From: Cyanobium sp. NIES-981
GTDB taxonomy: Bacteria > Cyanobacteriota > Cyanobacteriia > PCC-6307 > Cyanobiaceae
Assembly (NCBI GenBank): GCA_945896675.1
Contig: CAMDEM010000002.1
Span: 62,001-126,000 of the forward strand
Length of the DNA stretch: 64,000 nucleotides
Direction: 5' to 3'
Numbering within the stretch: the stretch's first letter is position 1; each line of letters begins with the position of its first letter. The translations under genes were made by a program, and so were the position numbers. Of the stretch, positions 60,738 through 62,478 are shown in pieces. The notes under the pieces are model-generated. The model made no database searches. It had not been told where the DNA came from and saw only the letters and a list, made by a program, of their open reading frames with translations.

Positions 60738-61121
60738 ATGTCTGCTACTACCGACCAAATTCTCGAGTCACTGAAGACTCTCTCCCTGCTTGAAGCTTCC
60801 GAGCTTGTGAAGCAGATCGAAGAGGCCTTCGGTGTGTCCGCTGCTGCTTCTGCTGGCGTGATGATGGCGGCTGCCCCTGCGGCTGCCGCTGAAGCCGTCG
60901 AAGAGAAGACCGAATTCGATGTCATCCTCGATGGCTTCGACCCTACGGCCAAGATCAAGGTGCTGAAGGCTGTCCGCGAGGCCACTGGCCTCGGCCTGGG
61001 CGAAGCCAAAGCTCTTGTGGAAGCTGCTCCCACCCCAATCAAGGAAGGCATCCCCAAAGGCGATGCCGAAGCCATCAAGAAGGCCGTGGAAGAAGTGGGC
61101 GGCAAGGTCTCCATCAAATGA
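60738..61121 (+). CDS. rplL: 50S ribosomal protein L7/L12
   Basis: Flexible stalk protein that recruits translation factors. It has 127 residues: N-terminal dimerisation part ([26 protein letters not shown]), Ala-rich hinge ([13 protein letters not shown]), and C-terminal domain ([24 protein letters not shown] ... [21 protein letters not shown]). Last gene of the ribosomal block; a terminator follows. Confidence 0.98.
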
Positions 61122-61163: not shown

Positions 61164-61192
61164 AGCCGGTTCCCGCGGGGACCGGCTTTTTT
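61164..61192 (+). terminator. Intrinsic terminator of the ribosomal block after rplL
   Basis: Stem AGCCGGT/ACCGGCT (extendable by G-C and one wobble pair) followed by six T, 42 bases after the rplL stop. Confidence 0.88.
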
Positions 61193-61202
61193 ACTGGCCA
61201 AT

Positions 61203-61228
61203 AAAAAAGCCCCGCCAAAGGCAGGGCT
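61203..61228 (-). terminator. Intrinsic terminator of the candidate sRNA
   Basis: Minus strand: AGCCCTGCC, TTT loop, GGCGGGGCT (nine pairs with one G-U) and six T. It lies back-to-back with the rplL terminator on the other strand. Confidence 0.85.
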
Positions 61229-61299
61229 CGAGAGTTAGAACGGTTTCCGGGAGTCTGTCCTCGTTTCGACCCCAGAAAGTCGTTCTGCACTCCTCACAC
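61203..61299 (-). ncRNA. Candidate small RNA, Yfr2-like, with its own terminator
   Basis: A minus-strand transcript of about 97 nt is suggested by four features. First, a -10-like TAGATT at 61306-61311 lies before GTGTGAGGAGT at 61289-61299. Second, a long hairpin follows at 61237-61286: AGAACG/CGTTCT, TTTC/GAAA, GGG/CCC, GTC/GAC, with loop GAAACGAGGACA. Third, a terminator hairpin at 61208-61228 has a T-run to 61203; its stem has a G-U pair on this strand but a C-A mismatch on the other, supporting this orientation. Fourth, the 5' element is the exact complement of ACUCCUCACAC, the invariant motif of cyanobacterial sRNA Yfr1. Yfr2-family RNAs (about 63-95 nt) are described as nearly complementary to that motif. 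Family membership is inferred. Confidence 0.55.
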
Positions 61300-61360
61300 A
61301 AATAAAATCTAAAGGGTGGGGTAAGGGGCTAACCCGGGAGCGGGACCTGTCTGGCAACTG

Positions 61361-61633
61361 TCACTCCCGGTAGGGAATCACCTGGAGGGCAACAACGTCG
61401 CCCGGTCGCAGGCGGCTGGTTTGCTCGGGGCCGGTTTGCAGGGGGACTGGCTGCACCGGTGGTGGCGGCAGGGGCGTGGGGTCCCAGCTGGCGGCCTTGG
61501 CGAGGGGCACCAGGGCGCCAACCCCGATGGTCAGGGCAGCGACAACTCGACTGGCCAAGACGCTGTGGGTACCGACTCGCCACGGGCCGACTCGGTAAGT
61601 TCGGGGGGCGCAGGGTTCAGTGGCTCCGGCCAT
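61361..61633 (-). CDS. Small exported protein of unknown function
   Basis: A 90-residue protein. A basic N-terminus and a hydrophobic stretch (about 28-47, VVAALTIGVGALVPLAKAAS) look like a signal peptide with an A-x-A-type cleavage site. A Pro-rich segment (DPTPLPPPPVQPVPLQ) follows, then SRLRPGDVVALQVIPYRE at the C-terminus. The gene is divergent from rnhA and upstream of the candidate sRNA on the same strand. No family is recognised. Confidence 0.6.
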   Translation of the reverse strand: MAGATEPCAPRTYRVGPWRVGTHSVLASRVVAALTIGVGALVPLAKAASWDPTPLPPPPVQPVPLQTGPEQTSRLRPGDVVALQVIPYRE

Positions 61634-61704
61634 GGTTCCGGCTCCAGGCCCGGCTGGGCTTCGGGGTTTGCAGTGTTATCTAACGAACCTTGGGGGGTTG
61701 TCCA

Positions 61705-62478
61705 GTGGCCGCTGAGCCGGTGAGGGTTGTGGCAGCGGCCTGTGATGGGGCCTGCAGTGGCAATCCGGGCCCAGGGGGCTGGGGTGCCTTGCTGCGTTTT
61801 GAAGATGGTTCGGTGCAGGAGTTTGGTGGGGCCGATCCAGCGACCACCAACAACCGCATGGAGCTCACGGCGGCGCTAGCGCTATTGGAGGCCCTCAAGG
61901 CCATGCCGCGCCACCCCGATTTAGCGATTCGGACCGACAGCAAATATCTGATCGATGGCTTTAGCAAGTGGATTCAGGGCTGGAAACGCAAGGGCTGGCG
62001 TACCGCTTCCGGGAGTCCGGTGCTGAACCGCGATCTCTGGGAGCTGCTCGACCAAGCCCGATTGGGCGGCGTGCCCCTCATCCATGTGAAGGGCCATAGC
62101 GGTGATCCCGATAACGACCGTTGTGACGTGATTGCGGTGGCCTTCTCTAGGGGTCAGAAGCCTTCCCTGGCGGCAGGAGGTGTTGGTTCTATCGCTCGCC
62201 CTGGTGATGCGGCTCCGCCTGCTGATCCAGCTCCCGGGTCTGATTTGGCACCGGCTTCCCTGCGGCAGTTGCTCACCCGCCTGGAGCTGGCTGATCGGCT
62301 AGCGGAGCGCGACTATGGCTTGAGCCTGGTGGAACTGGCCCAGCTGGTGGAGATGCCCTTGAAGCAACTGGAGGGCAAAACCGAGGCCTGGACTTGGCGG
62401 GATTGGTTGGTGCAGCCCGCCGATGGGGGGCGTTGGCGTTTGGCCCGTGCCGCGGGAGGATTGGGGCTAAGGGAGTAG
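61705..62478 (+). CDS. rnhA: Ribonuclease HI with C-terminal extension
   Basis: Cleaves the RNA strand of RNA-DNA hybrids. Catalytic residues are intact: D in [17 protein letters not shown] in [17 protein letters not shown] in [11 protein letters not shown], and H/D in [14 protein letters not shown]. The core ends near residue 145. A further 110 residues form a Pro/Ala linker and a helical region ([20 protein letters not shown] and [19 protein letters not shown]) that looks like a small helix-turn-helix. GTG 61705 is chosen over TTG 61690 (257 residues). Confidence 0.92.

Follow-up and report, generated by a model that had tools for sequence, protein, structure and literature searches.

A Yfr2 small RNA gene at a conserved place between rplL and rnhA in a Cyanobium-like genome, with exact complementarity to the Yfr1 encoded there

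The window, that is, the whole 64,000-nt stretch of DNA that was analyzed, carries on its plus strand at 61289-61299 the 11-mer ACTCCTCACAC, the core motif of the small RNA Yfr1, which reads GTGTGAGGAGT on the minus strand. The question raised by this locus is what the motif belongs to: a Yfr2 small RNA complementary to Yfr1, an RNA bearing the Yfr1 motif itself, the end of a neighboring transcript, or chance. The initial annotation had held that such an 11-mer is not expected by chance. The match is exact, and simple arithmetic gives an expectation of approximately 0.03 occurrences in the window, but the 11-mer by itself is suggestive rather than decisive. It was the sole match to ACTCCTCACAC in the window at up to one mismatch, where shuffled windows gave an expectation of 0.60, and the 10-mer CTCCTCACAC occurred three times genome-wide, the same number as its reversed control. 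The loop-stem sequence GTCGAAACGAGGACAGAC had one exact occurrence in the window, with 0.03 chance matches expected at up to three mismatches. Since the improbability of the 11-mer by itself is moderate, the decision on identity was based on the whole element.

Both strands were searched with the Rfam covariance models of Cyano-1 and Yfr1. RF01701 (Cyano-1) matched the minus strand at 61303-61233 with 54.5 bits (gathering score 41) over the entire model, positions 1-69, and no Yfr1 match was found on the plus strand. RNAs of the Yfr2 family are characterized by the Cyano-1 motif (PMC8400943). This match settles the identity, and what had been called a candidate Yfr2-like RNA can be raised to Yfr2. 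Judged from its sequence, the minus strand from 61299 to 61203 is a Yfr2 gene (Cyano-1, RF01701) with a predicted transcript of 97 nt, an ordinary further member of an already known family of cyanobacterial regulatory small RNAs. The features of the locus are as follows.

61203..61299, minus strand: Yfr2 (Cyano-1) sRNA gene (RF01701; conserved in 26 syntenic relatives)
61306..61311, minus strand: -10 box TAGATT (TANNNT), 6 nt ahead of the putative first transcribed G (offset counts, 26 relatives)
61289..61299, minus strand: 5' motif GUGUGAGGAGU, complement of the Yfr1 core (sequence, 26 relatives, co-fold)
61237..61286, minus strand: 50-nt main hairpin; one bulged base interrupts the stem three pairs beneath the loop (fold, pair counts)
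61256..61267, minus strand: conserved 12-nt loop GAAACGAGGACA (fold; nearly invariant among relatives)
61231..61235, minus strand: ACUCU segment, predicted partner of the 3' half of the motif (61293-61289), forming a closing stem (fold)
61203..61229, minus strand: intrinsic terminator, GAGCCCUGCCUUUGGCGGGGCUUUUUU, in which a U-G pair is conserved (terminator scan; U-G in 19 of 24 distinct relatives)
60738..61121, plus strand: rplL (ribosomal protein L7/L12), convergent neighbor (Pfam PF00542, PF16320)
61164-61187, plus strand: rplL's own terminator (terminator scan)
61690..62478, plus strand: rnhA (RNase H), neighbor on the other side (Pfam PF00075)

The Yfr2 RNA is predicted to start at about 61299 with the 5' end GUGUGAGGAGUG, its putative first G being that of GUGUGAGG. 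In the minus-strand fold, three pairs separate the loop from a bulge of one base in the 3' arm, and the T-run of the terminator ends at 61203. The TAGATT box at 61311-61306, the 50-nt hairpin at 61286-61237, and the terminator at 61229-61203 all lie where the initial annotation had placed them, and the GAGG element that it had noticed in the loop is part of the conserved loop of the Yfr2 family. According to Voss and colleagues, Yfr2 is marked by its long stem, its loop of 12 nt, and a bulge that is the fourth position counted from the loop (PMC2662882). An abundant, discrete RNA of about 80-100 nt is a further trait of the family. Nearly all the testable family marks can be recognized in the window copy, namely the 5' motif, the loop, the bulge, the T-tailed terminator, and the -10 box; the family's own promoter, here the conserved -10 box, and its intrinsic terminator are identified by sequence only. 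The window copy thus has in common with the family (RF01701) the 5' GUGUGAGGAG motif, the 12-nt loop, the bulge, the terminator, and its own promoter, as well as the presence of several copies per genome and of Yfr1 in the same genome.

Cyano-1 matches were obtained in 57 of the 60 relatives searched. One copy adjoins rplL on the rnhA side, in the opposite orientation to rplL, in 14/15 same-genus and 11/21 same-family relatives; the exception within the genus (G002) is a fragmented genome with no Cyano-1 match at all. A model (R1) was built from the 26 syntenic sequences, 24 of them distinct, and then run on 80 rplL loci of named genomes. The same arrangement was found in 29 of these loci, four of the sequences being identical to ones in the first set. 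R1-positive loci came from Cyanobium, from freshwater and marine Synechococcus (including WH 5701), and from five Prochlorococcus single-cell genomes; among the 80 loci, the arrangement was not detected in those of Nostocales or in most of the other Prochlorococcus loci. Lambrecht and colleagues described yfr2 genes as lying at unconserved loci (PMC6778093), whereas the window copy occupies a conserved place between rplL and rnhA. One yfr2 copy in the Cyanobiaceae is, on the gene order of the genomes compared, an exception to that description. Nothing that mentions Yfr2 together with rplL was found in the literature searched, the coverage of which was partial, and the conserved rplL-yfr2-rnhA place, seen in almost every same-genus relative and in many further Cyanobiaceae, is a detail beyond the literature covered.

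The structure is conserved along with the place. Across the 24 distinct sequences from the 26 syntenic relatives, 98.1% of the cells held standard pairs in the minus-strand reading, and 10 pairs showed changes on both sides. The covariation score was 0.228 compared to 0.144 in shuffles, 0/500 shuffles were as high on any pairing or covariation measure, and the pairing was broken when partners were slid by one column. Covariation with family members, the lack of which had been named in advance as an argument against a Yfr2 gene, is therefore present. The 5' motif and the 12-nt loop are both nearly invariant among the 26 relatives and equally conserved.

A partner RNA is encoded elsewhere in the genome. 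A single Yfr1 (RF01116, 65 bits), a distinct RNA that carries the complementary motif, was found at G000:C3:42436-42492, and Yfr1 was found in 53 of the 60 relatives. A thioredoxin-like reading frame was recognized downstream of the Yfr1 on C3. The usual place of Yfr1 is guaB-trxA, and the neighboring frame, as far as its sequence goes, fits that place. The Yfr1 core ACACUCCUCACACC is exactly complementary to the first 12 nt of the window Yfr2. The expectation that Yfr2 is nearly complementary to Yfr1 thus held as to complementarity, but the word nearly did not, as the match to the genome's own Yfr1 is exact. Co-folding of Yfr1 with the window Yfr2 gave -13.4 kcal/mol net of unfolding, and when the first 14 nt were shuffled the mean was -6.7 kcal/mol, with only 2/200 shuffles as low as -13.4.

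A second Yfr2-like copy lies on the minus strand at G000:C8:64720-64819 (L002 1474-1573). It scored 34.4 bits with Rfam, which is below the gathering score, but 62.7 bits with R1, and its co-fold with Yfr1 reached -14.6 kcal/mol. Its loop is identical to that of the window copy and its terminator is nearly identical. An opposing terminator, AGCCGGTTCC...GGCTTTTT, stands a few bases from both copies, and there is no rplL at the C8 locus; the C8 copy may be a duplication that took in the neighboring terminator. The genome also contains a gene for a GntR-family regulator at G000:C4:7171-7356 (L075; PF00392, 52.7 bits). In Prochlorococcus, Yfr2 is said to be under the control of a GntR protein, as reported in a 2018 study.

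A target site for Yfr1 was sought at porin genes. One porin mRNA of this genome carries the Yfr1-binding sequence GGUGUGAGGA just ahead of the start codon. At G000:C32:4019-4034 (L192, L215), GGTGTGAGGACCCG directly precedes the ATG of an OprB-family porin gene and is, by its sequence, a likely target site of Yfr1; porin genes of many relatives have this site as well. Because this porin start reads GGUGUGAGGACCCGAUG, the UCCUCACACC of Yfr1 can pair over the porin ribosome site. The predicted interaction of Yfr1 with this site was -8.8 kcal/mol, which was equaled by 0/200 shuffled sites. A site just before the start codon was seen in one of seven porin genes (the start codons of the others being only roughly placed), which would mean that Yfr1 does not target every porin. 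In 24 Cyanobiaceae genomes, GTGTGAGGA occurred 2-9 nt ahead of an ATG 48 times, compared to 4 times for the reversed control, and 17 of the 23 Cyanobiaceae GTGTGAGGA-ATG loci that were read encode relatives of the C32 porin. The 5' end of Yfr2 resembles the porin site as a copy would, in agreement with a decoy role.

The element between rplL and rnhA is thus very probably a Yfr2 sRNA gene equipped with a promoter and a terminator of its own, the product of which, in line with the published model, imitates a Yfr1 target and sequesters Yfr1. The minus strand would be transcribed from its own promoter at about 61299, and the 5' stretch of the RNA, the exact complement of the single-stranded Yfr1 core, would mimic the Yfr1-binding ribosome-site sequence of the porin mRNA. 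Yfr2 would pair with Yfr1 and draw it off its mRNA targets; with less free Yfr1, repression would be relieved and, for example, the outer-membrane porin message would be freed. These steps have been published for Prochlorococcus, where the relief of repression was assayed in E. coli: a porin reporter was repressed by Yfr1, and its expression was restored by Yfr2 (PMC6778093). Nostoc Yfr2 bound Yfr1 in gel shifts (PMC6974561). Yfr2 of Prochlorococcus is also increased under high light and nitrogen shortage (PMC6778093). Family membership, strand, promoter box, terminator, the presence of Yfr1, the 12-nt complementarity, and the porin site are the parts of this scheme read from the genome itself; by analogy with the studied systems, this organism would be expected to transcribe the gene, to form a physical complex of Yfr1 with Yfr2, and to show an effect on porin and other targets.

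Sequestration may not be the sole task of Yfr2, since pull-downs suggest many targets other than Yfr1 (PMC6778093). The nearly invariant loop is unexplained by pairing with Yfr1, and its likeness to RsmA-binding motifs has been remarked on (PMC2662882), so Yfr2 could mainly bind a protein, its GGA loop motifs serving as they do in RsmX, RsmY, and RsmZ, or else pair with mRNAs via the loop, the pairing with Yfr1 being secondary. We regard this as improbable: an RsmA homologue was not found in cyanobacteria by the same authors (PMC2662882), and the 5' motif, an exact match to Yfr1, is conserved as much as the loop.

An independent gene also has to be weighed against read-through from the gene upstream. 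In several relatives, a same-strand DUF3747 gene ends 68-107 nt ahead of the RNA, and co-transcription with a neighboring gene occurs for some Yfr2 copies of Synechocystis, so the element might be the 3' end, the terminator region, or a processed 3' UTR fragment of that gene rather than an independent gene. However, a TANNNT box ends at exactly -6 from the first G in 23/26 syntenic relatives, while no other offset was found in more than 2/26, and the box keeps its distance also in G013 (L015), where no upstream DUF3747 gene was found. Neither a sigma-70 promoter scan nor the comparison of relatives brought out a -35 element, and only the -10 box is claimed here. Published Yfr2 copies have their own mapped start sites (PMC2662882), and an origin as part of the upstream transcript is very unlikely. 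At the place that the DUF3747 gene (PF12565) takes in several relatives, the window holds a 90-aa reading frame at 61361-61633 on the minus strand. This frame had no Pfam or NCBIfam match and no significant BLASTP similarity. Its start region still reads RTY and its end VIPYRE (compare VIPFRD), and by these residues it may be the DUF3747 gene after a large internal deletion.

The independent gene is best read on the minus strand. The minus-strand fold reached -45.7 kcal/mol (z of -4.45 compared to shuffles) and the plus-strand fold, which pairs less well, -38.7 kcal/mol. On the plus strand, the same pairs held in 91.5% of cells instead of 98.1%, because G-U pairs turn into A-C mismatches. The terminator U-G pair, kept in 19/24 distinct relatives, also helps to fix the strand. 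From these wobble pairs and the terminator U-G, it follows that the RNA is the minus-strand one. A Yfr10-like RNA on the plus strand, which does hold the ACTCCTCACAC shared with Yfr10-type RNAs and can form a hairpin, is hardly credible and was rejected, as it has no Yfr1 covariance match, promoter, terminator, or conserved pairing of its own, the promoter box and T-tail are positioned for the minus strand, and rplL transcription has its own terminator ahead of the Yfr2 element.

The accessibility of the Yfr1-binding motif was predicted from the folds. In the minimum free energy structure of the window Yfr2, the first 6 nt are unpaired and nt 7-11 are paired in the closing stem. In Synechocystis, the first 8-13 nt of Yfr2 have been described as single-stranded (PMC2662882), whereas the window copy has a predicted pairing over the 3' half of its motif. 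The second half of the motif was predicted to be paired in all 24 distinct rplL-linked sequences of the model, with a mean unpaired probability of 0.03, the partner usually being an ACUC or CACCUC segment farther downstream. The mean unpaired probability was 0.56 in 30 other Yfr2 copies, of which 3 had the closing stem in their predicted folds, and 0.18 in 25 further rplL-linked sequences outside the model, of which 18 were predicted to have it. Shuffled linkers often reached equal sequestration of the motif, other segments taking over. For these two reasons, 18/25 in the further set and the linker shuffles, the closing stem was dropped as a defining mark of the rplL-linked copy; in the predictions it is nevertheless a real tendency of this copy. 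The half-folded motif, as predicted, is a second detail beyond the literature covered. Such pairing of the 3' half would slow or weaken Yfr1 binding. It is conceivable, though on balance unlikely, that the rplL-linked Yfr2 forms a distinct orthologous line with a half-closed motif that, unlike the open copies, binds Yfr1 only above a threshold or with help.

In one group of relatives, Prochlorococcus loci included (L009, L028, L029, L044, L048, L051, L087, L092, L093, L096, and L098), the motif variant GUGUGAGGGGU replaces GUGUGAGGAGU. The partner segment is usually altered as well, from ACUC to CACCU, and pairing with Yfr1 would need a G-U.

Known so far chiefly from Prochlorococcus, Synechocystis, and Nostoc, the pair of Yfr1 and Yfr2 is now placed in a Cyanobium-like genome, where the complementarity is exact and the sequence imitated by Yfr2 stands at a porin start site. 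The rplL-yfr2-rnhA place lets one Yfr2 copy be named an orthologue across the Cyanobiaceae and thereby allows comparison of copies within a multi-copy family. If the rplL-linked line is indeed distinct, half-closed and open Yfr2 copies in the same genomes would respond differently.
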